From an uncultured Pseudothermotoga sp. (GTDB lineage: Bacteria > Thermotogota > Thermotogae > Thermotogales > DSM-5069): a stretch of 64,000 nucleotides of DNA. Both the position numbers and the translations under genes were made by a program. This document shows, in pieces, positions 34,248-51,663 of this stretch. The DNA lies in assembly GCA_937995655.1 (NCBI GenBank), contig CALKJI010000001.1, forward strand, positions 62,001 to 126,000. The letters run 5' to 3'. The notes under the pieces are model-generated. The model did not search any database and was not told the origin of the DNA. It worked only from the letters and a program-made list of their open reading frames with translations. The first letter of the stretch is position 1. Each line of letters starts with the position of its first letter.

Positions 34248-35222
34248 GTGAAGGTAAGGTTAACGGCAGTTTTGCTACTAGGTTTGCTGATGCTGTCAGT
34301 TTTCGGGGCAACTTATCCTGACAAACCGGTCACCTTGATCGCACCTGGCAGTCCAGGCGGTGGCTGGGATACCACGGCAAGGGTCGTCGCACAAGTACTG
34401 AAAGAAACAGGTTTGGTTACTCAAACGATTGTAGTCACAAATATGCCTGGTGGAGGCGGTGGAATAGGCCTGGCACACATGCAAACAAAGGTGGGGGACC
34501 CCTACACGATAATAGTCTTCTCTCCACCACTCTTACTCATCAATTTGACCGGACAAACCAAGTACTCCTTTAAAGATCTTACTCCCCTTGCAATGGTTTT
34601 ACACGATTACGGCGCTTTCGCTGTATCAAAGAAATCAAAGTATACCAGCATCAAAGAAATTATGGAAGCGTTGAAGACAAACCCAAAGAGCGTCAAAGTT
34701 GGCGGAATATCAGCATACGGTTCAATGGACCACATTCAGTTCCTAATAGCTGCAAAAGCCGCGGGTGTTACCAGTTTAAAGGACATAACCTATGTATCCT
34801 TTCAAGAAGGTGACCACTTGGCCGCGTTACTGGGTGGGCACATTGATGTATTGTCCACTGGTCTTGCGGAAACTGTGAACGCTGTCCAGGCAGGTGCGGC
34901 CAGGGTTCTTGCTGTAACAGCACCACAACGCGTAGCAGGACTTCTTTCGATGGTTCCAACTCTCAGAGAAGAAGGTATAGATGCAGAATTTGTCAATTGG
35001 AGAGGATTTTTCGGGCCTCTCAACATGCCCTCTCACGCAGTCGAATACTGGATAAGCACCTTCAAAAATATGGTTGAAACTCCCACCTGGGAAAATAAGC
35101 TCGCAAACTACGGTTGGGGTAGGGCGTTCGTGGCAGGAACCGATTTTAAAGCATTCCTTGAGAAAACAAATGATTTATACAAGGAGATACTCTCAGAACT
35201 TGGATTATACAAAGGCGAATAG
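34248..35222 (+). CDS. TctC-type solute receptor (Bug family)
   Basis: Periplasmic receptor of a tripartite tricarboxylate transporter, 324 residues. Signal peptide to about residue 22 (LLGLLMLSVFGATYP), then YPDKPVTLIAPGSPGGGWDTTARV, the family's ligand loop, and GGGGIGLAHM. DVLSTGLAETVNAVQAG and a C-terminal receptor lobe are typical. Ligands in the family include citrate, other di- and tricarboxylates and aromatic acids. The GTG follows GGAGGTGGTATT. First gene of tctC-tctB-tctA-gntR. Confidence 0.9.
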   Translation: MKVRLTAVLLLGLLMLSVFGATYPDKPVTLIAPGSPGGGWDTTARVVAQVLKETGLVTQTIVVTNMPGGGGGIGLAHMQTKVGDPYTIIVFSPPLLLINLTGQTKYSFKDLTPLAMVLHDYGAFAVSKKSKYTSIKEIMEALKTNPKSVKVGGISAYGSMDHIQFLIAAKAAGVTSLKDITYVSFQEGDHLAALLGGHIDVLSTGLAETVNAVQAGAARVLAVTAPQRVAGLLSMVPTLREEGIDAEFVNWRGFFGPLNMPSHAVEYWISTFKNMVETPTWENKLANYGWGRAFVAGTDFKAFLEKTNDLYKEILSELGLYKGE

Positions 35223-35237
35223 CGCTCGCAATACTTT

Positions 35238-35262
35238 ACCCGCAGAGGTTTCCTCTGCGGGT
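35238..35262 (+). terminator. Intercistronic hairpin between tctC and tctB
   Basis: ACCCGCAGAGG and CCTCTGCGGGT form a perfect 11-bp stem around TTT, followed by TATTTGG. It is 16 bases after the tctC stop and inside an otherwise continuous operon, so it may act as a partial terminator or protect the receptor mRNA. Confidence 0.7.
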
Positions 35263-35280
35263 TATTTGGAGGGCTCGAGA

Positions 35281-35718
35281 ATGTACAAAGTAGAAAGGAT
35301 TTTCAACGTTCTTGCTCTTGCCTTTGGTATCATCTACACCATTGCATCTTTGAAATTGCCAAGGGCACCTGTGGGGGACCCAATGGGTCCAATCTATTTT
35401 CCCCTCGGCCTTGGAATCTTCATGGCTGTTTTAGGTGCACTGATGTTGATAACTAGCAAAAAAGACGACTCGGCCCGACATGAAAACTTTCAGAAAAAGA
35501 ATTTTACAATAGTTATCATCATAGTTGCCCTTGGAATCGCTTACAGCTTCCTTTTTAACAAGCTCGGTTTTATCGCCTCGACATTGTTATTTCTCTTGGC
35601 ACTACTTTTCTTGATTAATGGTCCTAAGAGCTGGCTCAAGAACATCTTGATAAGTGTCATCTTTACCGTTGGCATTTGGCTCTTGTTTGAAAGAGTCTTT
35701 TTAATCACCCTGCCATGA
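35281..35718 (+). CDS. TctB-type small membrane subunit
   Basis: 145 residues with four predicted membrane helices, the DUF1468/TctB pattern: LPRAPVGDPMGPIYFPLGLGIFMAV after the first helix and a GFIASTLLFLLALLFLINGPKSW segment later. The open frame extends upstream into tctC, but the ATG at 35281 follows GGAGGGCTCGAGA. It associates with TctA in the membrane; its exact role is poorly known. Five bases plus a ribosome site separate it from tctA. Confidence 0.9.
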   Translation: MYKVERIFNVLALAFGIIYTIASLKLPRAPVGDPMGPIYFPLGLGIFMAVLGALMLITSKKDDSARHENFQKKNFTIVIIIVALGIAYSFLFNKLGFIASTLLFLLALLFLINGPKSWLKNILISVIFTVGIWLLFERVFLITLP

Positions 35719-35731
35719 AGGAGTGGTTTTC

Positions 35732-37228
35732 ATGGAGACATTGCAGTACTTACTTTACGGACTCGAAGTTGTTTTGAGACCATCCACCTTTCTTTGGTTA
35801 ACCATCGGGAGTTTTCTTGGAACTGTCATAGGTATGATACCAGGTCTGGGACCGGCAACTGGCATAGCTTTGCTGCTACCATTGACTTTCGTCCTTAAGC
35901 CAGAGACTGCACTCGTTGCCATGGCTGCCATATATTTCGGAGCCATGTTCGGTGGTTCTCGAAGCGCCATACTTCTCAACATTCCTGGCGACGCTTCAGC
36001 AGTTGCAACTTGCTTTGATGGCTATCCAATGACACTGAAAGGGGAAGCTGAAGCCGCACTTGCTATCTCCGCAATCGCTTCCTTCGTAGGTGGGTTCATC
36101 GCCGCCATAGCTTTTGTGTTTCTGGCTGTCCCACTTTCAAAGATTGCACTTTTGTTTGGACCACCAGAGTACTTCGCATTGATGGTCTTAGCTCTTACAG
36201 CTACCGCGTCATTGTCAGAAGGAAAACTTCTTAAGGGTTTGTTTGCAACTGCGATCGGCTTGATGACTACAGCTGTTGGATTAGATCCTCAGACCAGTGT
36301 GTCAAGGTTCACCTTTGGAAATTTGGAACTTCAAGGCGGAATTGACTTTCTGGTCGTAATAATGGGGGTCTACGGCCTGGGAGAAGTTTTCAAAAGTGTA
36401 GAAAAGACCTTGAATAAGAGCTCAGCAAAATCTATTCAAAGGCAGTTCAAAAAAATATGGATAACAAAGGAGCAATTCAAAAGAACTCTTATACCTATGC
36501 TGCGGGCAACACCCATCGGGTTCATCATAGGTCTTTTGCCGGGTACCGGTGGGACGATAGCTGCATTGATGTCATACAACGTGGAGAAAAAGCTATCGAA
36601 AGAACCTGAAAAATTTGGGAAAGGAGCCATAGAGGGTGTCGCAGCACCAGAGGCAGCAAACAATGCATGCAGCATCGGAGCAATGATACCAACATTCACA
36701 TTGGGAATACCTGGATCTGGAACGGCAGCAATTATGCTTGGCGCGTTGATGATGTATGGACTCCAACCAGGGCCACTTCTGTTTGAGTTTCGTCCAGAGG
36801 TAGGATGGGGAATAGTTGCCTCTCTGTTCGTTGGTAATTTCATTTGTGCGGTGTTGAACATACCCCTTGCGAACTTGTTAGTTCGAGTTTTGATGGTTCC
36901 GGAAAAAATTCTCTATCCCTTGGTAATCGCGCTATGTTTCATAGGTGTTTACGCTGCCGAGATGAGCGTTGTAAACCTTTACCTTCTTGTCTTCTTTGGG
37001 ATCTTGGGATACCTTATGCGAAAGCTCGATATTCCCACAGCACCCATGATACTAGCGAGTGTTATAGGAACAAAACTTGAACAGTCTTTGCGAAAATCTT
37101 TGATGCTCTCCGACGGAGACTTTTCCATATTCTTCAGATCGACGATCTCACAAATACTCATTGCGCTAACCATTCTTTCTCTGCTTTACCCAATGATTTC
37201 AAAAACTCTTAAGCGCAGAAGAACTTAA
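35732..37228 (+). CDS. TctA-type large transport subunit
   Basis: The 498-residue permease has about twelve membrane helices. It carries both TctA signature repeats: GTVIGMIPGLGPATGIALLLP near the N terminus and PIGFIIGLLPGTGGTIAALMSY in the middle, plus ILLNIPGDASAVATCFDGYPM and LGIPGSGTAAIMLGAL. It imports the TctC ligand using an ion gradient. A GTG at 35723 overlaps the ribosome site GAAGGAG, so ATG 35732 is the start. Confidence 0.95.
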   Translation: METLQYLLYGLEVVLRPSTFLWLTIGSFLGTVIGMIPGLGPATGIALLLPLTFVLKPETALVAMAAIYFGAMFGGSRSAILLNIPGDASAVATCFDGYPMTLKGEAEAALAISAIASFVGGFIAAIAFVFLAVPLSKIALLFGPPEYFALMVLALTATASLSEGKLLKGLFATAIGLMTTAVGLDPQTSVSRFTFGNLELQGGIDFLVVIMGVYGLGEVFKSVEKTLNKSSAKSIQRQFKKIWITKEQFKRTLIPMLRATPIGFIIGLLPGTGGTIAALMSYNVEKKLSKEPEKFGKGAIEGVAAPEAANNACSIGAMIPTFTLGIPGSGTAAIMLGALMMYGLQPGPLLFEFRPEVGWGIVASLFVGNFICAVLNIPLANLLVRVLMVPEKILYPLVIALCFIGVYAAEMSVVNLYLLVFFGILGYLMRKLDIPTAPMILASVIGTKLEQSLRKSLMLSDGDFSIFFRSTISQILIALTILSLLYPMISKTLKRRRT

Positions 37229-37271
37229 TCAAATGTATAATCAAAGATGAACCATCGAGGAGGAATTCACC

Positions 37272-37931
37272 TTGACCACAATAGCACGCAAATCTCTCAA
37301 AGAAGAGGTTCTGGAAAGAGTTAGAGAATATATTCTGAAAGGGTACGTGTCTCCTGGTGAGAGGATAGTCATAGATGAACTTGCAAGGAGACTCGGTGTA
37401 AGCATTACACCTGTTAGAGAAGCATTAAACTGTCTTGCCGCCGAGGGTTTGTTGACCTTCCAACCTCACAAAGGTTTCACCGTCAAGAAATGGACCAAGA
37501 ATGAGATCGAGGATCTATTACTTTTGAGAATTTCCCTTGAAAAATTGGCAGTCAGATTGTTCATCGAAAGAGGTTACGAAGCAAACTTACCCCTTTTAAG
37601 GACAACCTTGGAAAAAATGTGGCAGACCCTTCAAAAGGAGGATGTTGAAAGACTCGCAGAGTTGAACGCAGAATTCCACAAGATAATAGTAATGGGTTCA
37701 AAAAATGAGGAGTTAGAAAAAGTCATGAACACCTTACGAGACAAGCTTCAAAGAGTTAGGATACTCTCGCTATCCAATCCGCACCGGCCAAAGCAATCTT
37801 ATGAAGAACACTTTGAAATCTTCCAAGCGATAGAAAAGAAGGATATAACCCTTGCAGAAAAAGCAGTAGAAAAACATGTCTTAAGTATCAAAGACACCCT
37901 GTTAAACCAACTTCCAGAAGATTTCCTGTAA
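37272..37931 (+). CDS. GntR family (FCD) transcriptional regulator
   Basis: 219 residues: an N-terminal winged helix (LARRLGVSITPVREALNCLAAEGLL) and an all-helical FCD ligand domain with LLRISLEKLAVRL, NAEFHKIIV and SYEEHFEIFQAIEKKD, where Asp/His residues usually bind metal and an organic acid. The TTG start follows GGAGGAATTCACC. It ends the tct operon and probably controls it and the divergent lyase through the palindromes at 34178-34200. Confidence 0.92.
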   Translation: MTTIARKSLKEEVLERVREYILKGYVSPGERIVIDELARRLGVSITPVREALNCLAAEGLLTFQPHKGFTVKKWTKNEIEDLLLLRISLEKLAVRLFIERGYEANLPLLRTTLEKMWQTLQKEDVERLAELNAEFHKIIVMGSKNEELEKVMNTLRDKLQRVRILSLSNPHRPKQSYEEHFEIFQAIEKKDITLAEKAVEKHVLSIKDTLLNQLPEDFL

Positions 37932-40700: not shown

Positions 40701-40750
40701 TTGACAAATAATCTTTGGTGTCTTTTAATTGATGTGGTAACGTTACCACA
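40701..40750 (+). promoter_or_regulatory. Promoter and LacI-type operator of sulfosugar operon
   Basis: TTGACA (40701-40706) and TTTAAT (40724-40729) have a 17-base spacer. The perfect 18-bp palindrome TGTGGTAACGTTACCACA (40733-40750) covers the expected start point, with the central CG typical of LacI/GalR operators. Repression by the LacI protein encoded at the operon's end is the simplest reading. Confidence 0.85.
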
Positions 40751-40765: not shown

Positions 40766-42037
40766 ATGAAGAGGTTTTTCCTGGCTTTAATCCTTCTCAT
40801 TGCTCTATGCATCTTTGCCGCTCCTTACAACACAAAGATAAAGGTGCTACTGTGGGACGATGCGCTCACTCAGGCTTTGAAAGCTGGATTGCCAGATTTT
40901 GAAAAGGCTACAGGCATCAAAGTCGATTTAGAATTGGTACCAAGTGGCACTCTGCTTCAAAAAACCTTAATAAGTGTCACAGCCAAGAGTTCAGATTACG
41001 ATCTGATAGCAGTCGATGAACCAAATATACCCATGGTAGGCCCGTTGCTCACTGGATTCTCTGATTGGCCACAGACACAGGTTTACACCAGACCCAGTAT
41101 GGCTGATATTATGCCTCTTGCCTTTGCCGCGGGCCAGTGGAAGGGAGAATTTAAGGGTCTCCCCGTGAACGCAAACATCTACGTATGGCTTACGAGAAAG
41201 GATATAGTGGAGAAGTACAAAGAGGAATTCAAAAAAGAATATGGTTATGAAATGAGGGTTCCCAGAACTTTACAGGAATTGCTCGATATGAGCAAATTCC
41301 TCTCAAAGAAGGGTATCTATGGTTGGGCTCCATTCACCAAACCTACCGAAGGTGCTACGGCAGAAGCCGTATGGATCTTCGAAAGCTTTGGTACAAAGAT
41401 CCTAGAACCCGACGCCAATGGTTACAAAGTCGTGTTAGACAAGAAGAAGGCCATTGAGGCTATCAACTTTTATAAAGAACTTCTAAAATATGCACCCCAA
41501 GGCGCTCTTGACTTTGGACATGCAGAGCGTGTTGCAGCCTTTTCCCGTGGAGAAGTCTTCTCAATGTTCAACTGGCCAGCATTGATACCTGACCTTGAAA
41601 ATCCTGAAAAATCTCTTGTCTATGGCAAAATCGAGTACACAGAGCCACCTTCTGGCCCAGCGAAAACCGCTGCTGTTCGAGGCGCCTGGATCGTCGCCAT
41701 ACCGGTGGCATCTAAAGAAAAACAGGCAGCTGCCGAGTTCGCCTATTGGTGGATGAGCGTTGAAACGGGGAAAAAGCTGATACCCAAAGGTTTGACACCA
41801 GCCAGAGAGTCTTTGTTAAAAGATCCAGAGTTCCTCAAAGACAGGCCTTGGTTCCTTGGTATTTACAAATCCATGCAGTATGCCGTTGAAAGACCAAGGT
41901 TTGAAAAGTATCCGGAGGTCTCAGCCGTAATCAGAACACACTGGTTGGATGCAATCTCAGGAAGGATTGCCCCAGAAACTGCCGTTGACAGGATGGTGAA
42001 CGAGATAAATGACCTCCTCAGGAAGTATGGTTACTAA
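40766..42037 (+). CDS. ABC sugar-binding protein, sulfosugar operon
   Basis: A 423-residue family 1 extracellular solute-binding protein. Signal peptide MKRFFLALILLIALCIFAAP; KIKVLLWDDALTQALKAGLPDFEKATGIKVDLELV is the opening lobe, and AVRGAWIVAIPVASKEKQAAAEFAYWWMS a conserved hinge region. First gene of the ten-gene operon, 15 bases after the operator. By context its ligand should be sulfoquinovose or sulfoquinovosyl glycerol; the family by itself only says sugar. The ATG follows AAGGGGGTGTTTTT. Confidence 0.9.
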   Translation: MKRFFLALILLIALCIFAAPYNTKIKVLLWDDALTQALKAGLPDFEKATGIKVDLELVPSGTLLQKTLISVTAKSSDYDLIAVDEPNIPMVGPLLTGFSDWPQTQVYTRPSMADIMPLAFAAGQWKGEFKGLPVNANIYVWLTRKDIVEKYKEEFKKEYGYEMRVPRTLQELLDMSKFLSKKGIYGWAPFTKPTEGATAEAVWIFESFGTKILEPDANGYKVVLDKKKAIEAINFYKELLKYAPQGALDFGHAERVAAFSRGEVFSMFNWPALIPDLENPEKSLVYGKIEYTEPPSGPAKTAAVRGAWIVAIPVASKEKQAAAEFAYWWMSVETGKKLIPKGLTPARESLLKDPEFLKDRPWFLGIYKSMQYAVERPRFEKYPEVSAVIRTHWLDAISGRIAPETAVDRMVNEINDLLRKYGY

Positions 42038-42905
42038 GAAAAGGGGCGTACGCCCCTTTCTTGGTTTCATCTTTCCCGGTATAACACTCTTGACCATGAT
42101 ATTGATCTTTCCCGTGAGTTTTGCCCTAGTCCTTTCTTTCACAGACAGGCAGTTGATCTATCTTGGCTCGACCAATTTTGTTGGTTTATCCAATTACATT
42201 GAGATGGTTAGAGATAAAGGCTTTTGGAGTTCACTTCTACTACAGTTTGGTTTCATAACGATCGCTATACCAATAGAACTCGTAATAGGCTTTTTTGTTG
42301 CCTTGCTTTTCAACAATGAATTTCCATTGTGCAAACTTCTGAGATCTCTGTTGATGTTACCCGTTTTCATCTTGCCGGTACTGTCAGGTCTAACCTGGCG
42401 GTTGATGCTGCAACCACGTTATGGTATCTTGGCAAGTTTTTTTAGCTCTATTTCTCTGGGACCTTCTGCCTGGTTAGCCGACAGGAAATACGCTTACTTG
42501 GCTATCTTATTACAGGATATATGGAGAATGTGGCCCTTCATCTTTATGATCATTTATGCGGGGCTTTCTTCTATGTCTAAAGAGTACTTAGAAGCGGCAC
42601 AAATAGATGGAGCAAGATTTTGGCAAAAGTTATACTATGTGATAATTCCATGTTTGAAACCAGTTATAGCCATGGCATTTCTGCTGAGGTTGATAGACGC
42701 ACTTAGAATCTTTTCCGAGGTCTATGTGATGACCTACGGTGGACCATCCAATGCCACAATGCTTTTATCTTTGTACATACACAAACAAGCCTTTGAATTT
42801 GGAAAGATATCTTACGCATCTTCTATAGCGATCTTTCTTTTGATTATTTCTCTTGGTCTCTCTTACTTTGTTGTAAAAAAAGGCTTGAGGAGTGACATTG
42901 TGTGA
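42009..42905 (+). CDS. ABC sugar permease, MalF-like
   Basis: 298 residues with six predicted membrane helices and the EAA loop EYLEAAQIDGARFWQKLYYVIIPCLKP, typical of CUT1 sugar importers. The start overlaps the binding-protein stop. ATG 42009 gives a 29-base overlap; ATG 42027 (MVTKKRGVRP), 11-base overlap, is equally plausible. It pairs with the next gene. No ATPase is encoded in the operon. Confidence 0.92.
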   Translation: MTSSGSMVTKKRGVRPFLGFIFPGITLLTMILIFPVSFALVLSFTDRQLIYLGSTNFVGLSNYIEMVRDKGFWSSLLLQFGFITIAIPIELVIGFFVALLFNNEFPLCKLLRSLLMLPVFILPVLSGLTWRLMLQPRYGILASFFSSISLGPSAWLADRKYAYLAILLQDIWRMWPFIFMIIYAGLSSMSKEYLEAAQIDGARFWQKLYYVIIPCLKPVIAMAFLLRLIDALRIFSEVYVMTYGGPSNATMLLSLYIHKQAFEFGKISYASSIAIFLLIISLGLSYFVVKKGLRSDIV

Positions 42906-43720
42906 GAAAGAAAGTCTTTCATTGGATAATCTTTGTAGTTGCCCTATTCATAGTTATGGTTCAACTCTTTCCAATCATGATTGTTGTATTCAACAGCTTC
43001 AAAAGAGATATCGACATATGGAGCAAGAACCCTTTTTATTTCAAACCAACGTTGCGAAGCTATGAACTCATATTTCAAAGCAAAGACTTCATCAATTCGT
43101 TAAAGAATTCCTTCTTTGTGGCACTTCTCTCAACGATTGTTTCCGTATTTTTTGGCTCCATGATGGCCTTTGGGCTTGTTAGATTCCAATTCAGGATCAA
43201 CAACCTTGTTATCATGATTATTCTAATGCTCAGAATGATTCCGCAGATAACTATGGTGCTACCTTTCTACATACTTTTCAGGGTTTTTTCTTTGAACGAT
43301 ACTATCTACGGTCTATCCTTGGCACACGTGAGTTTTAACCTGCCGTATATTGTGGCATTGCTATTACCGTTCTTTTCCTCCATACCGAAAGATTACGAAG
43401 AAGCAGCAAAGATTGATGGTTGTAAAAGTTTTGGCATCTATTGGAGAATCTTTTTACCACTCGCATCAGCTGGCATTGTAGTGGCTGCCGTTTTGGGATT
43501 TCTGATGTCCTGGAATGAGTTCATGTACGCTTTAATTCTAACCAGTTCAAGAGCAAAAACAGCACCGATAACGGTGAACGCCTTTCTGGGTCAGTATGCA
43601 CCGCTTTGGGGTCAGCTTTCTGCAGCGGGAACGGTGATGTTAATACCAGTTTTTGCGATCACCTTGAGTTTACAAAAGTACATTATAAAGGGTTTATCTG
43701 CCGGTGGATTAAAAGGTTGA
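42902..43720 (+). CDS. ABC sugar permease, MalG-like
   Basis: 272 residues, six membrane helices, EAA loop DYEEAAKIDGCKSFGIYWRIFLPLASAGI. Translation starts at GTG overlapping the stop of the previous permease by four bases, so the two are made in equal amounts. Its partner ATPase is likely a shared MalK/MsmK-like protein encoded elsewhere. Confidence 0.92.
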   Translation: MRKKVFHWIIFVVALFIVMVQLFPIMIVVFNSFKRDIDIWSKNPFYFKPTLRSYELIFQSKDFINSLKNSFFVALLSTIVSVFFGSMMAFGLVRFQFRINNLVIMIILMLRMIPQITMVLPFYILFRVFSLNDTIYGLSLAHVSFNLPYIVALLLPFFSSIPKDYEEAAKIDGCKSFGIYWRIFLPLASAGIVVAAVLGFLMSWNEFMYALILTSSRAKTAPITVNAFLGQYAPLWGQLSAAGTVMLIPVFAITLSLQKYIIKGLSAGGLKG

Positions 43721-43735
43721 GAAGGAGTGATAAAA

Positions 43736-44395
43736 GTGCTGTTTTTCCTTGATAGTGCAAAGCTTGATGAGATCGAATACGCCATCACAAGATGGAAGAT
43801 CGATGGTGTTACAACCAACCCACGACACTTAATGAACGCTGGAATGAAAGTGGAAGAATTTGCACAAAAGATAATAAAGATGATACCTTCCTTGGATTTC
43901 ACAGTGAGTTTAGAGGTAAATCCCCATCTAAAGGAATCTGAAGAAATATTCCAAGAGGCCGTGAAACTCTCTAAGCTTGGAGAAAACTTTGTCATAAAGG
44001 TCCCAGCAACGGAAGCTGGGTTTGAGGCACTTGTGAAACTCAAAAAGGAAGGTGTCAAAGTCAACGTGACTTTGGTATTCAATCTTGTACAAGCACTCCA
44101 AGCTGCCAAATTGGGAGCTTTTTATATCAGCCCGTTTGTTGGCTGGAAGGAAGAAAGAGGTGATATCGATCCAAACTTCATACCAACAGTTGTGAAGGCA
44201 ATAAAGAACTACCATTACGATTCCAAAATCTTAGTGGCTGCTACGAGATCTGTCAGACATATCGCAGATGCCGCCCTTTGCGGAGCCGATATAGTTACTT
44301 GCTCCTTCGATCTTTACAAGAAAGCCTTTGAAAATCCTTACACCGAGATGGGGTTAAAGATCTTTTCAGATTCGTGGGACTCAATCTACAGATGA
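43736..44395 (+). CDS. sftT: Transaldolase-family protein, probable sulfofructose transaldolase
   Basis: A 219-residue single-domain class I aldolase barrel of the TalC/fructose-6-phosphate-aldolase type. The Schiff-base Lys88 is in VIKVPAT; DGVTTNPRHL and ISPFVGWKEERG are family motifs. In sulfoglycolytic transaldolase pathways such a protein splits 6-deoxy-6-sulfofructose to sulfolactaldehyde and passes the three-carbon unit to glyceraldehyde-3-phosphate, giving fructose-6-phosphate. This role is inferred from the GH31 and isomerase in the same operon. A GTG at 43727 overlaps the ribosome site GGAGTG; GTG 43736 is the start. Confidence 0.82.
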   Translation: MLFFLDSAKLDEIEYAITRWKIDGVTTNPRHLMNAGMKVEEFAQKIIKMIPSLDFTVSLEVNPHLKESEEIFQEAVKLSKLGENFVIKVPATEAGFEALVKLKKEGVKVNVTLVFNLVQALQAAKLGAFYISPFVGWKEERGDIDPNFIPTVVKAIKNYHYDSKILVAATRSVRHIADAALCGADIVTCSFDLYKKAFENPYTEMGLKIFSDSWDSIYR

Positions 44396-44407
44396 GGAGG
44401 TATTGGC

Positions 44408-44689
44408 ATGGTCGATTTCTTAGTCCACAAAAAGGGCGATTATGTTGGTGTGGCTACAACAGATTTAAAGAAGGGTATCATAGCACAAGGCTGGACAGTT
44501 GATAAAGATCTTAACTATGAAATCGAAGTTCTCGAAGATATACCACTTGGACATAAGATAGCTTTAAGAGATATAAAAGGCGGCGAAAAGGTTATCGAGT
44601 ACGGCGAAACAATAGGAGTCGCTACCAAAGACATCAAAATGGGTGAGCACGTTCACATCCATAACATAAAGAGTTTGAAATGGGGGTGA
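44408..44689 (+). CDS. suyA: SAF-domain small subunit, SuyA-like
   Basis: A 93-residue protein consisting of one SAF domain of the UxaA N-terminal type: FLVHKKGDYVGVATTDLKKG and GETIGVATKDIKMGEHVHIHN. With the following gene it forms a split UxaA/GarD-type dehydratase. (2R)-sulfolactate sulfo-lyase has exactly this make-up, a small SuyA and a large SuyB. Alone, it could equally be half of an altronate/galactarate dehydratase; the operon context favours sulfolactate. ATG follows GAGGAGGTATTGGC. Confidence 0.8.
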   Translation: MVDFLVHKKGDYVGVATTDLKKGIIAQGWTVDKDLNYEIEVLEDIPLGHKIALRDIKGGEKVIEYGETIGVATKDIKMGEHVHIHNIKSLKWG

Positions 44690-44693
44690 GAAT

Positions 44694-45848
44694 ATGCAAA
44701 GGCAAGTCATTGCTTATAGAAGAGAAAACGGAACGGTTGGGGTACGAAATTATGTCCTTTTGATTCCCGTTGATGATATATCCAATGCCGTTGTGGAAGC
44801 TGTTGAAAAAATTGTCAACGGAACTTTAGCAATACCTCATCCTTATGGCAGGTTACAATTTGGAGAGGACTTGGAACTGTTTTTCAAAACAATGATAGGA
44901 ACCGGGAAAAACCCCAATGTAGCAGCTGCTATTGTTGTTGGAATTGAACCAAATTGGACACACAGGATAGCAGACGAGATATCCAAAACTGGCAAACCAG
45001 TTGAAGGTTTCTGGGTCGAGGGAAATGGTCAAATCAAAACGATAGAGAAGGTAGCAAGAACCGCTGTAAAATTTGTTGAAGATGCGACGAACTTAAAAAG
45101 AGAACCCGTTGATATAAATGAGTTAACTATCAGTCTTAAATGCGGCGAATCTGACACAACATCTGGTTTAGGATCAAACAAAGTTGTTGGTAGATTTACA
45201 GAAAGATTCCTACAAATCGGTGGAACAGTTCTTTTTGGTGAGACAACGGAGTTAACAGGTGCAGAACACATAGTAGCCTCAAAGTTCAAAGATAAAAACG
45301 AAAAGGAAAAGTTCCTGAAAATCTTCCAAGAGTACCAAGATTTGGTTAAATCAAAAGGTGTAGATCTGCTTGGCTCACAACCGACCCAGGGCAATATTGC
45401 CGGAGGACTCAGTACTATCGAAGAAAAGGCATTGGGAAATATACAAAAAATCGGAGATGCCATGATTGATGGAGCACTCGATTTTGCTGAGCCGGCTCCA
45501 GGTAAAGGACTTTACTTTATGAACACCTCGTCGGCAGCAGCCGAAGCAGTCACATTGTTCGCTTCAGCCGGTGCTGTTATTCATCTATTCCCAACCGGTC
45601 AAGGAAACCCCATAGGAAATCCCATCGTTCCCGTTGTGAAAATAACGGCGAATCCCAAAACCGTTCAGTCCATGAAGGAACACATAGATGTAGATGTCTC
45701 TGCCTTGCTCAGAGGTGATATAAACCTTGATCAAGCCGCAGAGACACTTTGGAATAGGGTCGTCGAGACAGCCAATGGACGACTTGTAAAAGCAGAGATA
45801 CTCAGACACAATGAATTCGTTTTGACAAAACTTTACAGAAGTGCATGA
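44694..45848 (+). CDS. suyB: UxaA/GarD-type large subunit, SuyB-like sulfolactate sulfo-lyase
   Basis: 384 residues matching the C-terminal catalytic domain of altronate/galactarate dehydratases and SuyB: YRRENGTVGVRNYVLLIPVDD, VVGIEPNWTHRIADEI, LKCGESDTTSGLGSN and PTQGNIAGGLSTIEEKALG. SuyAB eliminates sulfite from 3-sulfolactate, giving pyruvate. Size and split organisation fit SuyB. It starts four bases after suyA behind GGGGGTGAG. The sulfolactate assignment rests on neighbours that would make this substrate. Confidence 0.82.
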   Translation: MQRQVIAYRRENGTVGVRNYVLLIPVDDISNAVVEAVEKIVNGTLAIPHPYGRLQFGEDLELFFKTMIGTGKNPNVAAAIVVGIEPNWTHRIADEISKTGKPVEGFWVEGNGQIKTIEKVARTAVKFVEDATNLKREPVDINELTISLKCGESDTTSGLGSNKVVGRFTERFLQIGGTVLFGETTELTGAEHIVASKFKDKNEKEKFLKIFQEYQDLVKSKGVDLLGSQPTQGNIAGGLSTIEEKALGNIQKIGDAMIDGALDFAEPAPGKGLYFMNTSSAAAEAVTLFASAGAVIHLFPTGQGNPIGNPIVPVVKITANPKTVQSMKEHIDVDVSALLRGDINLDQAAETLWNRVVETANGRLVKAEILRHNEFVLTKLYRSA

Positions 45849-45859
45849 GGTGATAAAGG

Positions 45860-47275
45860 ATGAAGATGATCATAGCCGGCCGTTGGACCGATAGATCCCA
45901 GAAAATCGAAGTTCTCTATCCCTACGATGAAAACGTAGTTGATACCGTACCACAGGCAACCGAAGAAGACATAGAAACCGCATTGAAGGAATCAGTCAAT
46001 GGTGCACGACTGATGAAACAAATGCCTGCTTGGAAAAGATCTGAAATACTTGAAAAAACATCAAAAATTCTTTTGAAAAGGAAAGATGAGATGACGAACA
46101 TATTGGTAAAAGAGGTAGGCAAAACCATCAGAGAAGCCCGAGCCGAGGTTGAAAGAACCGTGGAGATATTCAAGTACGCTGCAGAGGAATCAAAGAGAAT
46201 TTACGGTGAAACCTTACCTTTTGATTCATCCATTACCTCCGAAACAAAGATTGGTTATTTCCTTCGCGAACCATCGGGCGTAGTCGTTGCAATTGTCCCG
46301 TTCAATGTACCCTTAGCCCTTTGTGCACACAAAGTTGCACCTGCAATTGCTGCAGGAAATTCCGTTATAGTTAAACCGGCATCCAAAACGCCGTTGAATG
46401 CCATTATCCTGGGAGAGATCTTACTGGAAGCTGGGATGCCTCCAGAAGCCTTGAGTGTTGTAACCGGCTCGGGAAGCAAGATTGGTTTGATGCTCGTACA
46501 AGACAAAAGAGTTAGAATAGTCAGTTTCACTGGGAGTGTCAGCACAGGTGAGGTCATAGCCAAGGCTGCAGGAATCAAGAAACTGTGTTTTGAACTTGGC
46601 TCAAACTCTCCAATGATTGTCTCTAAGACTGCCGATCTTTCAAAAGCTGTAAAGGCTGCTGTAAGCGGTGGCTTTTCAATCGCCGGACAGGTCTGTATAT
46701 CAGTCCAGAGAGTCTATGTTCACAAAGAGATATATCAAGATTTTCTTGACAGATTGTACAACGAAGTAAGCAAAATGAGATTTGGAGATCCTTCTTCCGA
46801 AGAAACTCATATGGGCCCAGTTGTAGATAGATCCAATGCAGACAGAATAATCCAGTGGATAGATGAAGCAGTCACCAAGGGTGGAAAACTTTTAATAGGC
46901 GGTGGTAGAAACAAAAACCTGATAGAACCAACTGTTCTCACTCAAGTGCCCAAGAGCACTAAGATTATGACAGATGAACTTTTTGGGCCTGCCATTGCGG
47001 TTAATCCCTTTGAAACCTTTGATGAAGCTATAGAAGAAGCTAATTCTACAAGGTATGGACTTCAAGTGGGTGTATTCACAAAAGATCTTCAAGAAGCTCT
47101 CAAAGCTATAAAGGAATTGGAGTTTGGAGGTGTCATGATAAACGAAGGTCCAAGATTTAGAGCAGACTTTATGCCTTATGGTGGCTACAAGGACAGCGGA
47201 ATCGGTAGAGAAGGAATAAGATTCACAATAGAAGAGATGACAGAAATAAAAACTGTTTCCTTTGATCTTCTGTGA
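45860..47275 (+). CDS. Aldehyde dehydrogenase, probable sulfolactaldehyde dehydrogenase
   Basis: A 471-residue NAD(P)-dependent aldehyde dehydrogenase. Catalytic Cys279 is in GQVCISVQR, the general-base Glu in FELGSNSP, and VPFNVPLALCAHKVAPAIAAGNSVIVKPA is the cofactor region. The C-terminal NEGPRFRADFMPYGGYKDSGIGREG is common to lactaldehyde- and succinate-semialdehyde-type enzymes. In this operon it would oxidise 3-sulfolactaldehyde to sulfolactate, feeding SuyAB. The ATG follows GAGGTGATAAAGG, 11 bases after suyB. Confidence 0.88.
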   Translation: MKMIIAGRWTDRSQKIEVLYPYDENVVDTVPQATEEDIETALKESVNGARLMKQMPAWKRSEILEKTSKILLKRKDEMTNILVKEVGKTIREARAEVERTVEIFKYAAEESKRIYGETLPFDSSITSETKIGYFLREPSGVVVAIVPFNVPLALCAHKVAPAIAAGNSVIVKPASKTPLNAIILGEILLEAGMPPEALSVVTGSGSKIGLMLVQDKRVRIVSFTGSVSTGEVIAKAAGIKKLCFELGSNSPMIVSKTADLSKAVKAAVSGGFSIAGQVCISVQRVYVHKEIYQDFLDRLYNEVSKMRFGDPSSEETHMGPVVDRSNADRIIQWIDEAVTKGGKLLIGGGRNKNLIEPTVLTQVPKSTKIMTDELFGPAIAVNPFETFDEAIEEANSTRYGLQVGVFTKDLQEALKAIKELEFGGVMINEGPRFRADFMPYGGYKDSGIGREGIRFTIEEMTEIKTVSFDLL

Positions 47276-47293
47276 AATTAGGGATGTGAGACT

Positions 47294-49264
47294 ATGCAAA
47301 TGGAAATAACTTCAAGTGGTTTTAAATTGAGATACAAAGATCTTATGATAATTCACCAGAAAGATAATCCACTGGTTTTCTGTGGCAGTGGAAAATCGAA
47401 TTTTCAGATGAGTCATGGAAACTTTCAGATCACAGATGATCTTTTTTCCAAGATACCTTTAAGGCAATTTTCTATTCAAGGGGGAAACATAATCTTCGAG
47501 AACCTCATAACTTTGAACTTCGAAGAATCAGACGATCTTCTTCAGATTCACTTTGAACCTCTGGACAAAACTCTGAACAGGTTATGGGTAACTCTACCGT
47601 TACAACCAAATGAGCACATATACGGTTGTGGCGAGCAATACTCGCATTTTGATCTCAGAGGGAAGAGGGTTCCTATCTGGGTGAGTGAACAGGGTGTTGG
47701 TCGAAACAAGAAAGACTTAATAACAATTTTTGCCGACTTTTTCTCCAATGCCGGTGGTGATTGGTACACAACCTATTTTCCACAGCCAACCTTTGTTTCT
47801 TCTAGAATGTATTTCTGTCATGTTGAAACATCTTCATACACTGTCTTTGATTTCACCAAAGACCATCTTCAGATAGAAATCTGGCAGTTACCAGTGACTG
47901 TGAAGATCTACTGTGCTGAAAGCTGGCAGGATCTTTTTGCCAAAATGACTACAATCCTTGGAAGACAACCTAAGATTCCAGAATGGATCCTAGATGGAGC
48001 CATATTGGGAATACAGGGTGGCACTCAAATAATGCTTGAGAAAACAGAGAAAATGAGAAACAAAGGATTGAAGATAGCCGGTGTCTGGATCCAAGATTGG
48101 GAAGGTAAGAGAATAACCACCTTTGGAAGGCAATTGATGTGGAACTGGCAGTATTCTGAAGAGCTTTATCCAAATTTGCCAAAGACAATTGAAGTACTAC
48201 AGAAAGAGGATATACGAGTCTTAGGTTATATAAATCCCTTTCTCGCACTGGAGGGAAATCTATACACAGAAGCAAGCGCTAAAGGTTTTCTTGTAAAAAA
48301 CAAGAATGGTGATGAATACCACGTTGTTGTGACAACCTTCCCGGCAGCAATTGTCGATTTGACAAACCCATTGGCTTGCGAATGGTTGAAGAATGTGATA
48401 AAGAAGAATATGATAGGCATAGGTCTTTCAGGTTGGATGGCAGACTATGGCGAATACCTACCCACCGATGCTGTTCTTTACAGTGGCGAATCTGCCGAAT
48501 TGGTTCACAATAAATTCCCTGTTCTTTGGGCAAAGGTGAATTATGAAGCAGTTAAAGAATCTCAAAAAGACGATGTTGTCTACTTCATGCGTTCTGGCTA
48601 TACAGGTAGTGCAAGATACACACCTTTATACTGGAATGGTGATCAATTGGTGAACTGGTCCAAAGATGATGGCTTGGCGAGTATAATACCAGCAACCTTG
48701 TCTCTCGGTATGAGTGGTGTCGCTTTTACTCATTCAGACATTGGTGGTTACACCACTTTGGCAAAAAATGTTCCAGATATGATAAAGACAGTGAGATCAA
48801 AGGAAGTGTTCCTAAGATGGACAGAAATTGCTGCTTTCATGCCTGTTATGAGAACACATGAAGGAAATTGGCCAGATGAAAACTGGCAATTCGATTCAGA
48901 CGAAGAGACAATCGAACATTTTGTAAAGATGACTGAACTTCACAGAAGACTTAAAAATTATTTCTTAAAGTGTGTACATGAATATTACGAGACGGGTTTA
49001 CCAATTATAAGACCTCTCTTTCTTCATTATGATGAACCGTTTTGTTATACCGAACAATACGAATTCTTGGTTGGTAGAGATATACTCCTTTGCCCCGTCT
49101 TAGAAAAAGACGTGACACAGATGACTGTCCATCTGCCCGACGATCTGTGGGTTCATTACTGGACAGGAAAGGAATATTATGGTGGAGAATACAGAATTCC
49201 TGTTCCCCTAGGGGAACCTGCATTTTTCATAAGGAAGGAAGGCGAAAAACCTTGGAAAGATTAA
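47294..49264 (+). CDS. GH31 sulfoquinovosidase, YihQ-like
   Basis: 656 residues, closely similar over the barrel to E. coli YihQ: WIQDWEGKRITTFGRQ, WMADYGEYLPTD with predicted nucleophile Asp384, WNGDQLVNWSKDDGLAS with predicted acid/base Asp450, HSDIGGYTT with Tyr486, and MPVMRTHEGNWPDENWQF. The YihQ subgroup hydrolyses alpha-sulfoquinovosides such as sulfoquinovosyl glycerol, and Tyr486 and Trp283 match its sulfonate-binding positions. The Arg expected three residues before that Trp is Gln280 here, with Arg279 next to it. No signal peptide, so it acts in the cytoplasm on imported glycoside. ATG follows GGGATGTGAGACT. Confidence 0.88.
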   Translation: MQMEITSSGFKLRYKDLMIIHQKDNPLVFCGSGKSNFQMSHGNFQITDDLFSKIPLRQFSIQGGNIIFENLITLNFEESDDLLQIHFEPLDKTLNRLWVTLPLQPNEHIYGCGEQYSHFDLRGKRVPIWVSEQGVGRNKKDLITIFADFFSNAGGDWYTTYFPQPTFVSSRMYFCHVETSSYTVFDFTKDHLQIEIWQLPVTVKIYCAESWQDLFAKMTTILGRQPKIPEWILDGAILGIQGGTQIMLEKTEKMRNKGLKIAGVWIQDWEGKRITTFGRQLMWNWQYSEELYPNLPKTIEVLQKEDIRVLGYINPFLALEGNLYTEASAKGFLVKNKNGDEYHVVVTTFPAAIVDLTNPLACEWLKNVIKKNMIGIGLSGWMADYGEYLPTDAVLYSGESAELVHNKFPVLWAKVNYEAVKESQKDDVVYFMRSGYTGSARYTPLYWNGDQLVNWSKDDGLASIIPATLSLGMSGVAFTHSDIGGYTTLAKNVPDMIKTVRSKEVFLRWTEIAAFMPVMRTHEGNWPDENWQFDSDEETIEHFVKMTELHRRLKNYFLKCVHEYYETGLPIIRPLFLHYDEPFCYTEQYEFLVGRDILLCPVLEKDVTQMTVHLPDDLWVHYWTGKEYYGGEYRIPVPLGEPAFFIRKEGEKPWKD

Positions 49265-50667
49265 AGGTAGGACTTTTGGGCTTGATGCAACCAAATTTCA
49301 GAGGAAATAAACAACAGGTCTTCGATAGATGCCTCAAAGGTTTATCTGAACTTTCAAAAGAACTGGATTTTGATCTATACCATGTGAGGAATCTGGTCTC
49401 TGATGTTGAACATACCAGGAGTTCTTTGAAAGAACTTGAATCCCACGGTATAGATTTACTTTTGATCTTGAATGCCTCCTTTGCTTCCGGTTATCTTGTA
49501 CAGGCTCTCTTTGATTTCAACGGTTTTCTTGGTTTTTGGGCAGTCCCCGAAGAGGGAGAAAAAGGTCCTTTACCACTAAATTCGCTATGTGGTATGAATT
49601 TGAACATTGGTTTGCTCAGAAAGAAAAGGCCACACAGGAAGTTCAAATGGTTTTATGGGTATCCAGATCAAGAGATCTTCAAAAAACGCCTCTTTCTTAC
49701 TGTAAAAACCTTAGGTACTATCAAGAGATTGAAAGGCAAAAGGATATTACAAGTAGAGGGTTGGGCTCCTGGGTTTGATAATCTGTCCTACGAGTCAAGC
49801 GATTTGTACAATCACTTTGGTGTAATTGTAGAAAGAATTAGCTTTGAAGAGTTCAAAAAGATGATTCTGTCTCAGAGATCTTTTGATAAAACCATCGATC
49901 AGATGAAAAAACACTTCATCGCTATAGATGATCTTTCCAAACAGAGCCTGCCAAAGGCAGCAGCATTGGTAGACGTGGTTAAAGAGCTCCATGAAAAAGG
50001 TTATGAGGCTTTTGCAGTAAGTTGTTGGCCATACTTTAGATCACATCTTTCAATGGTACCTTGCGCATCCTTTGGCTTTTTGAACGATCTTGGTATAACG
50101 GTTGCTTGTGAAGGAGATATCTATGGTGCTTTAAGTATGCTCATTTTGAGATATTTGGCCGAATGTCCATCTCTAATATTTGATATATCACACATAGATG
50201 TTGATGAAGATCTTTTACTATTTTGGCATTGCGGGCTTGGTAGTAAATGTTACTCCGATAAACTTTGGATGGAAAGACATTTCAACCCAGGACCCTTCGA
50301 TCCTCAAAAGGGATGGCTTACTATGGCACCAGTTGCCAGTATGGTTATAGATAAAATGCCGGCAACTGTGATGAGAATTTGTGGTGACGGCGATAAAATA
50401 ATCTTTTTCAAAGGTGAATTTTTCGGTGATTCTAAACCATCATTCGATGGCAGTCGTGGCTGGTTTGGTAAGATGAGCTTCGCTGGAAAAAAGCTGGGTG
50501 TGATGGATCTTATTAACACAATCATGACATATGGGCTTGAACATCATTTTTGTGTTGTAAAAGAAGACTGGGAAGAAGAACTATTTGAATTTGCTTACTG
50601 GTCCGATTTAAAGATCCTGGAACCACTTTCATATGAGAATTATCCATCAAAGATTGAAGGGGTGTGA
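49252..50667 (+). CDS. sftI: Fucose-isomerase-fold protein, probable sulfoquinovose isomerase (SftI-like)
   Basis: 471 residues of the L-fucose/L-arabinose isomerase-like superfamily, recognisable by the N-terminal VGLLGLMQPNFRGN, the ACEGDIYGALSMLILRYL metal-site helix and the C-terminal GLEHHFCVVKEDWEEEL. In sulfoglycolytic transaldolase operons this family supplies sulfoquinovose-to-sulfofructose isomerisation. The frame is open far into the GH31 gene, but TTG at 49252 follows GGAAGGCGAAAAACC and yields the family N terminus. It overlaps GH31 by 13 bases. Confidence 0.8.
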   Translation: MERLKVGLLGLMQPNFRGNKQQVFDRCLKGLSELSKELDFDLYHVRNLVSDVEHTRSSLKELESHGIDLLLILNASFASGYLVQALFDFNGFLGFWAVPEEGEKGPLPLNSLCGMNLNIGLLRKKRPHRKFKWFYGYPDQEIFKKRLFLTVKTLGTIKRLKGKRILQVEGWAPGFDNLSYESSDLYNHFGVIVERISFEEFKKMILSQRSFDKTIDQMKKHFIAIDDLSKQSLPKAAALVDVVKELHEKGYEAFAVSCWPYFRSHLSMVPCASFGFLNDLGITVACEGDIYGALSMLILRYLAECPSLIFDISHIDVDEDLLLFWHCGLGSKCYSDKLWMERHFNPGPFDPQKGWLTMAPVASMVIDKMPATVMRICGDGDKIIFFKGEFFGDSKPSFDGSRGWFGKMSFAGKKLGVMDLINTIMTYGLEHHFCVVKEDWEEELFEFAYWSDLKILEPLSYENYPSKIEGV

Positions 50668-50670
50668 ATT

Positions 50671-51663
50671 TTGAAGACGAACCAAGTCACCATAAAAGAT
50701 ATTGCCAAACTCAGTGGTTACTCTATAAATACTGTTTCAAGGGCTTTGAACGGTAACGGATACGTCAGTAAACAGGCAAAACAAAAGATCCTGGAGGTCG
50801 CAAAAAATATCGGTTATTACAAAGACAGAACGGCTCTCTCTTTGAGGCAAAAGAAGACCAAGATCATCGGTGTAATAATAGTAGATAACTCAAACCCATT
50901 TTATGCAGACGTACTGAGTGGTGTAGAAGATGCTGCTTATGAAAAAGGTTTTGAAACGATATTGGTGAACAGCTACAGAGATCCCGAACGTGAAAAAAAA
51001 GCAGTAATCAAGATGATTGAAAGAAGGGTTGATGGTTTAATAATCACTTCTACCCAACAGAACTGGGAGTTATTACTGAGTGCCAAGCAAAAGACAAATG
51101 TTGTAGTAGTCGGATCACACTATCGGGGTTTGAAATCTGTAAGACCTGACGATCAAAAGATCGGTTATATCGCCACGAAATACTTAGTCCAGATGGGACA
51201 CAGAAATATCGTCATGTTCAATTCTTTACCTGAGAAATTTACTTCCCAGTTCCGTCAAAAGGGTTATCAATTGGCGATGGAAGAGGCAGGACTGCGAAGT
51301 CATATAATAAATTCTGCGGAAGGTTTCGAAAACTCCTACGAAAGATTCAAAGAGTTTTTTCAAGAAAAGAACTCACGAAAGTTCACGGCCGTTCTTTGTT
51401 ATAACGACATTTTTGCCTATGCAGTAATAAAAATTGCCAAGGACTTAAAGATAGATGTACCAAACCAACTCAGCGTCATGGGAATAGATGATCTGGTTTT
51501 CTCTGCCATAATTGATCCCCCACTCACCACTGTTCACATAGATAGACGAGAACTGGGTAAATTGGCCTTTCTGTCGGTCATTGGTGAAAACAACGCCGAA
51601 GAAACTGTGATAGATGTACATCTTGTAGAGAGGTCGAGTGTTGCTCGAAAGACCTCTGTCTAA
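50671..51663 (+). CDS. LacI-family repressor of sulfosugar operon
   Basis: 330 residues, complete: HTH and hinge VTIKDIAKLSGYSINTVSRALNGNGYVSKQ, then a periplasmic-binding-protein-like effector domain ending in the dimerisation segment (VMGIDDLVFSAIIDPPLTTVHIDR). TTG start behind GGGGTGTGAATT, four bases after the isomerase stop. As last gene of the operon it would be autoregulated through the palindrome at 40733-40750. A sulfosugar or phosphate-free intermediate is the likely inducer. Its stop overlaps the convergent thiamine permease stop. Confidence 0.9.
   Translation: MKTNQVTIKDIAKLSGYSINTVSRALNGNGYVSKQAKQKILEVAKNIGYYKDRTALSLRQKKTKIIGVIIVDNSNPFYADVLSGVEDAAYEKGFETILVNSYRDPEREKKAVIKMIERRVDGLIITSTQQNWELLLSAKQKTNVVVVGSHYRGLKSVRPDDQKIGYIATKYLVQMGHRNIVMFNSLPEKFTSQFRQKGYQLAMEEAGLRSHIINSAEGFENSYERFKEFFQEKNSRKFTAVLCYNDIFAYAVIKIAKDLKIDVPNQLSVMGIDDLVFSAIIDPPLTTVHIDRRELGKLAFLSVIGENNAEETVIDVHLVERSSVARKTSV

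Follow-up and report, generated by a model that had tools for sequence, protein, structure and literature searches.

We analyzed a 64,000-nucleotide stretch of the genome of an uncultured Pseudothermotoga sp. (assembly GCA_937995655.1, contig CALKJI010000001.1, positions 62,001 to 126,000; hereafter the window), in which ten plus-strand genes between positions 40766 and 51663 form one run, neighbours either overlapping or lying no more than about 20 bases apart. It is probable, in our view, that they make up an extended operon of transaldolase-type sulfoglycolysis (sulfo-TAL) through which all of the carbon of sulfoquinovose would be used. The first gene encodes an ATP-binding cassette (ABC) solute-binding protein (SBP_bac_8/1; 40766–42037), which probably binds a sulfosugar, judging by Pfam and synteny, and the next two encode permeases assigned by Pfam domain and synteny (both BPD_transp_1; 42009–42905 and 42902–43720). 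There follow the genes of a predicted sulfofructose transaldolase (43727–44395), a SuyA-like protein of 93 amino acids (44408–44689), a SuyB-like protein of 384 amino acids (44694–45848), an aldehyde dehydrogenase (ALDH) of 471 amino acids (45860–47275), a GH31 glycosidase (47294–49264), a fucose-isomerase-like protein (49252–50667; TTG start picked from the sequence), and a LacI-family regulator (50671–51663). From 43720 to 47294 the intergenic gaps are 4–18 bases. A sequence-only reading of the window had placed a SAF protein, a SuyB-size partner, and an ALDH between transaldolase and glycosidase; the open reading frames and their families bear this out. Nor does the operon contain a gene for a sulfolactate exporter, in line with that reading.

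Directly before the first gene lies an 18-bp perfect palindrome, TGTGGTAACGTTACCACA (40733–40750, plus strand), a probable LacI-family operator. It is the only match in the window at three or fewer mismatches (0.02 expected). It recurs unchanged ahead of the operon in the three relatives that have the operon LacI gene (L058, L059, and L060) and was not found before the operons of relatives without that gene. Since the operator stands ahead of the first gene and the LacI gene is the last, and since the two co-occur, the first and last genes belong to one regulated unit; the 50671–51663 product, assigned by Pfam, is the likely regulator. A probable promoter (TTGACA-N17-TTTAAT, 40701–40729, plus strand) was spotted by eye; it is weak, and a consensus scan had no match there.

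The paired genes at 44408–45848 encode a small SAF protein (PF08666) and a large protein with the Pfam domains GD_AH_second and GD_AH_C. A separate small SAF subunit adjoining a large GD_AH subunit is the arrangement of sulfolactate sulfo-lyase, SuyAB, an Fe(II)-dependent enzyme that cleaves (R)-3-sulfolactate to sulfite and pyruvate. Among the SuyB loci that we examined, nearly all have a SuyA gene beside suyB. In a maximum likelihood tree of 49 proteins, the window SuyB and 13 Thermotogae orthologues (72–84% identity) formed one group (support 98/95), which together with 21 SuyB-type proteins of other phyla made up a 35-sequence SuyB clade (support 100/99). The clade takes in proteins of Cupriavidus pinatubonensis, Paracoccus versutus, Rhodococcus koreensis, and Desulfovibrionaceae; these references are species or family relatives of assayed SuyAB, not the assayed proteins themselves. 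SuyAB has been studied in C. pinatubonensis and Desulfovibrio lineages (PMC6278857, PMC9594981). UxaA and GarD of E. coli fell outside the clade, as did the UxaA-like paralogues of Thermotogae. The pair had been taken for SuyAB in the sequence-only reading, and the phylogeny agrees with it: clustering of the 44694–45848 product with UxaA or GarD was not seen. Furthermore, 27 residues are shared without exception by the 35 SuyB proteins and never present in 13 proteins of UxaA/GarD type, and the identities of the window SuyB are bimodal, 55–63% to SuyB of other phyla versus 34–41% to UxaA-like proteins. Together, tree, diagnostic residues, and synteny make a strong sequence-based case that 44408–45848 encodes SuyAB. 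The window genome (G000) has one such UxaA-like paralogue, on contig 3, where it is part of a second SuyAB/UxaA-like pair (L065:3675-10882). This pair adjoins genes for a tripartite transporter, malic enzyme, and a Mar2-type LarA, and perhaps belongs to a tartrate or malate pathway.

Each of the 13 further SuyB-positive loci of Thermotogae (three families) has the same gene set, to the extent that its contig covers it, and this retention indicates that the arrangement is not due to chance. Two gene orders occur: either GH31 precedes the isomerase and the LacI gene is present, or the isomerase comes first and no matching LacI gene is there. Wei, Tong and Zhang (2022) described sulfo-TAL clusters of Thermotogae and Chloroflexi that hold the (R)-sulfolactate sulfolyase SuyAB and suggested complete carbon use (PMC9594981, citing its reference 21). 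Their cluster and ours share transaldolase-type sulfoglycolysis genes and SuyAB in one cluster with proposed six-carbon use, and nothing essential differs at the level of the window. The window operon adds another member to a kind of pathway that has been reported, as a prediction, for Thermotogae. The text of that paper, figure aside, makes no mention of the handedness problem for this cluster (see below), of a LarA gene, or of the fate of sulfite. The predicted pathway resembles the sulfo-TAL pathway of Bacillus megaterium and B. aryabhattai (SftT/SqvA, SftI/SqvD, SlaB) in its transaldolase, its isomerase family, and its putative ALDH-type sulfolactaldehyde (SLA) dehydrogenase, but the Bacillus pathway ends at sulfolactate, whereas the window adds SuyAB and its isomerase and GH31 are divergent.

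The predicted transaldolase, of SftT/SqvA type, scores 228 bits to the sulfofructose transaldolase of B. megaterium (8bc3/8bc4/8bc2) versus 142 for the next structure. Its K91, the putative Schiff-base lysine, aligns with the catalytic lysine of the B. megaterium enzyme, and the Trp of GWKE and the Ala and Arg of AAxR are kept; these three positions, matched by alignment and not by published residue numbers, fit the reported WAR motif, so that both catalytic Lys and W/A/R of a sulfofructose transaldolase are found. The GH31 protein passes the NCBIfam model PRK10426 for YihQ-type glycosidases (883 bits, cut-off 553). It retains the catalytic D384 and D450 as well as Q241, Q267, W283, and Y486; the equivalent of YihQ R301, a sulfonate contact, is Q280, so that the QQRWY sugar/sulfonate motif of YihQ is incomplete. 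We therefore call the protein a YihQ-type sulfoquinovosidase by sequence model and not by full motif. The ALDH (Aldedh, 536 bits) has FNV at 148–150, H157, and C279 at a spacing that matches SlaB of B. megaterium, for which a Phe-Asn-Val tripeptide, His164, Asn280, and a catalytic Cys have been described (PMC10599462); it is likely to be an SLA dehydrogenase.

Genome-wide statements, here and below, rest on protein-family searches. Siroheme sulfite reductase (NIR_SIR, PF01077) was not found in the window genome or in any SuyB-positive relative; across 101 genomes a single match exceeded the cut-off, and the genome concerned is SuyB-negative. A TauE-type protein is encoded on contig 4 of the window genome, unlinked to the operon. 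We rejected it as a pathway-specific exporter, since TauE is present in 89 of the 101 relatives, with or without SuyB, and is uninformative. Of the two routes that the sequence-only reading had allowed for sulfite, reduction is thus not supported, no PF01077 protein having been found; as for release, the exporter found is the unlinked, nearly ubiquitous TauE, and export is the likely fate.

Sulfoglycolysis gives (S)-sulfolactaldehyde, SuyAB is described as (R)-specific, and known pathways racemise (S)-sulfolactate by SlcC and ComC ahead of SuyAB (PMC9594981). ComC, the (R)-sulfolactate dehydrogenase (Ldh_2, PF02615), was not found in the window genome or in any SuyB-positive Thermotogae genome. 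Because ComC is absent, racemisation by SlcC and ComC cannot operate in the window organism, and a SlcC/ComC pair elsewhere in its genome is ruled out for the same reason. Outside Thermotogae, seven SuyB loci have homologues of both SlcC and ComC within the fetched stretch (L050, L071, L072, L073, L095, L096, and L100), and in none of the seven does that stretch contain LarA. Degradation by SlcC/ComC and SuyAB, as in Chromohalobacter and Paracoccus wurundjeri (PMC12421959), resembles the predicted pathway in that SuyAB frees sulfite from sulfosugar-derived sulfolactate. Those systems, however, invert the stereocentre by means of two dehydrogenases, whereas the window genome lacks ComC and relatives have LarA instead.

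Most likely, SuyAB of the window lineage accepts (S)-sulfolactate, or an unlinked LarA supplies the (R) form. No SuyB residue turned out to be fixed in the LarA-less family alone, which might have marked a changed stereopreference. The unlinked LarA would be the LarA-type racemase gene at C3:107646 of the window genome, of the LarAH6 malate-racemase type. LarA of this type is present in every SuyB-positive genome of the window's family and the contig 3 protein keeps the anion-binding G-x-H-K motif; malate and sulfolactate, moreover, are close analogues. Nevertheless, its neighbours are the tripartite transporter, malic enzyme, and UxaA-like pair, the type also occurs in SuyB-negative genomes (G001 and G003), and LarC and LarE, for the nickel cofactor, were not found in the window genome, all of which makes this source of (R)-sulfolactate a possible but rather doubtful one. 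LarA homologues occur in the window genome at C3:107646-108233 and C4:140276-140728, and also in f1 and f9 genomes, where LarC/LarE were not detected.

A LarA gene of about 415 amino acids lies between suyB and the ALDH gene in seven SuyB-positive genomes from two families other than the window's (G011, G023, and G025 of f2; G062, G066, G074, and G079 of f9), abutting or overlapping suyB in most of them. It occupies the interval between suyB and the SLA dehydrogenase gene at L054:7890-9137, L055:11412-12656, L061:11026-12264, L062:11235-12473, L063:10856-12127, and L064:11562-12821, and in G011 it adjoins suyB at the contig end (L056:2-1126). The operon LarAs have Lar_N and LarA_C domains with catalytic and cofactor-binding residues present, and they carry the features of the LarAH5 group: the catalytic His pair, the cofactor Lys, the Arg75 equivalent, and a Gln after the second catalytic His. 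The published mark of LarAH5 is a Gln or His replacing a group 6 Phe (PMC7583248), a position that we read as the residue after the second catalytic His. Gln is at that position in all seven, which form one clade (100/100). The L055 protein scores 483 bits against the NCBIfam LarAH5 "malate racemase" model (cut-off 462) and shares the group-5 Gln with the LarAH5/Mar1 group (PMC7583248); the L061 protein (f9), at 391 bits, is under the cut-off. Unlike the LarAH5/Mar1 malate racemases, the relatives' LarAs have an operon context that points to sulfolactate. The gene is absent from the operons of the window's family, including that of the window, and the LarAs of that family are of Mar2 type or more distant. 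On plasmids, LarA matches amounted to 15 records of no more than 34% identity.

LarC and LarE are both present in the three f2 genomes with operon LarA. They were found neither in the f9 genomes that have it nor in the window genome, and this is the strongest point against the racemase proposal made below; either a different cofactor route exists or the f9 enzymes do not work as assumed. LarC was also considered as a marker of operon LarA and discarded, because it tracks genus and not SuyB.

Another phylum offers a second context. At the Armatimonadota locus L091, a LarA with the same Gln directly follows SuyB. Among 291 Armatimonadota genomes, SuyB is present in two and a LarA of at least 350 bits against the operon profile in five. 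Two of these five are the SuyB genomes; one of them fed the profile, which makes its score circular. The remaining three are SuyB-negative, which rules out that Gln-type LarA is exclusive to SuyB genomes; their LarAs have the same Gln and stand beside ComA (phosphosulfolactate synthase) and a P-loop protein of 347–348 amino acids (L193:921-4089, L194:2376-9627, and L195:7855-15108). Against a cut-off of 280, the two ComA proteins tested scored 341 and 353 bits, and the third is 99% identical. Two of the three clusters, near-identical to each other, also encode a transaldolase, an ALDH 52% identical to that of the window, TauE, and a YeiH-type exporter. The P-loop protein, a putative sulfolactate kinase, contains a Walker A motif and gave a weak match of HprK type; a search of solved structures gave no match. 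In two Acidobacteriota genomes that also hold SuyB (L146 and L148), another LarA type lies away from SuyB, beside an ALDH 41–42% identical to that of the window, and may represent a further sulfolactate context.

This LarA type, then, adjoins two different (R)-sulfolactate enzymes, SuyB and ComA, and the simplest reading of its place beside both is that it is a sulfolactate racemase. We predict this function for the operon LarAs of the relatives. In the ComA clusters, LarA would feed the kinase and ComA run backwards; alternatively, ComA may work in the making direction. The proposal as a whole, towards which the evidence tips us by a small margin, is that a nickel-pincer sulfolactate racemase (Gln-type LarA, LarAH5 and kin) interconverts (S)- and (R)-3-sulfolactate and replaces SlcC/ComC in anaerobic or thermophilic sulfosugar degraders. 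In some SuyB-less Armatimonadota, LarA would serve a second, so far undescribed desulfonation route, in which the P-loop protein would phosphorylate (R)-sulfolactate and reversed ComA would yield phosphoenolpyruvate and sulfite, with export by TauE/YeiH. The window operon would have lost LarA, so that its SuyAB either changed enantiomer preference or uses another LarA. The term "sulfolactate racemase" was not met in the literature searched, subscription journals being outside the search, and "sulfo" was absent from the LarA superfamily papers examined.

A malate racemase merely carried along in the relatives' operons, unrelated to sulfolactate, would fit the NCBIfam label of the L055 protein, and the substrate of a LarA is not always predictable from genomic context (PMC7583248). 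We consider this improbable. At several loci the gene abuts suyB or overlaps with it, two families have it placed between suyB and the dehydrogenase gene, and LarAs with the same Gln recur in another phylum beside SuyB or ComA, both of them sulfolactate enzymes. In addition, the KM for L-malate of Mar1, the founding member of LarAH5, is 55 mM, and the authors who discovered this enzyme question whether malate is the native substrate (PMC7583248).

Several observations weigh against the predicted pathway of the window. No gene in the operon accounts for the step from (S)- to (R)-sulfolactate. The isomerase scores 146 bits against the SftI model NF048012, far below the cut-off of 700 (262 bits for the isomerase of the relative L055), and appears to be a distant SftI relative of SftI/SqvD type. 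With the catalytic Cys as alignment anchor, the ALDH has Ser at Asn280 of SlaB, the second SLA-binding position. The equivalent of YihQ R301 is Gln in all 12 Thermotogae GH31 proteins compared, including those of loci L053–L064. The literature held no biochemical test of any Thermotogae enzyme in this pathway that we could find, and according to a 2026 review many Thermotogae reduce SLA to dihydroxypropanesulfonate (PMC12890257), unlike the gene content here, which speaks for oxidation of SLA over its reduction.

The missing YihQ Arg301, consistent as it is across Thermotogae, could mean that the operon serves another sulfosugar or a non-sulfonated glycoside. We regard this as quite unlikely, since Arg or Lys occupies the preceding position (300), GH31 retains the rest of the motif, and three other products of the operon, the transaldolase, ALDH, and SuyAB, belong to sulfonate types. 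Least of all do we expect the 44408–45848 pair to dehydrate a sugar acid, as an enzyme of altronate or galactarate type would, in an operon without sulfite release: Pfam and NCBIfam do assign it to the galactarate/altronate dehydratase superfamily and its closest solved structure is GarD (6u7l), but those names are at superfamily level, the GarD equivalog model gives 140 bits against a cut-off of 731, the neighbouring genes would make sulfolactaldehyde and sulfolactate, and its place in the SuyB clade and its 27 SuyB-only residues led us to reject that function.

Upstream of the operon, at 34248–37931, the window encodes a tripartite tricarboxylate transporter (TctC, probable TctB, TctA) and, after it, a GntR/FCD regulator; a TctC-type gene is also near SuyB in L048, a possible link.

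From gene content, protein families, the SuyB clade, conserved synteny, and the operator, as read in the sequence, we infer the substrates, order of reactions, stereochemistry, and fate of sulfite as follows. The ABC system would import sulfoquinovosyl compounds, from which GH31 would free sulfoquinovose. After its isomerisation to sulfofructose, the transaldolase would transfer the C3 unit that bears no sulfonate to an acceptor from glycolysis, leaving (S)-sulfolactaldehyde, which the ALDH would oxidize to sulfolactate; SuyAB would then cleave sulfolactate to pyruvate and sulfite. The sulfite would not be reduced by a siroheme sulfite reductase and would probably be exported. The LacI regulator would switch the operon via the palindrome at 40733, and in the f2 and f9 relatives the operon LarA-type racemase would take the (S)- to (R)-step. 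The route from sulfolactaldehyde to pyruvate and sulfite proposed from the sequence alone thus holds as far as the identity of SuyAB (tree, residues, synteny) and the ALDH as likely SLA dehydrogenase are concerned, with complete carbon use as the logical outcome, and is not supported for sulfite reduction.

If this is correct, thermophilic fermenters can use, in one cell, all the carbon of an organosulfur compound that ranks among the most abundant, releasing sulfite, and the second bacterium that most models require is not needed. The new and testable point is that a racemase is missing in the window lineage while relatives have LarA in its place. Their comparison offers a testable substrate for an orphan group of nickel enzymes and an answer to a handedness problem that current pathway drawings pass over.

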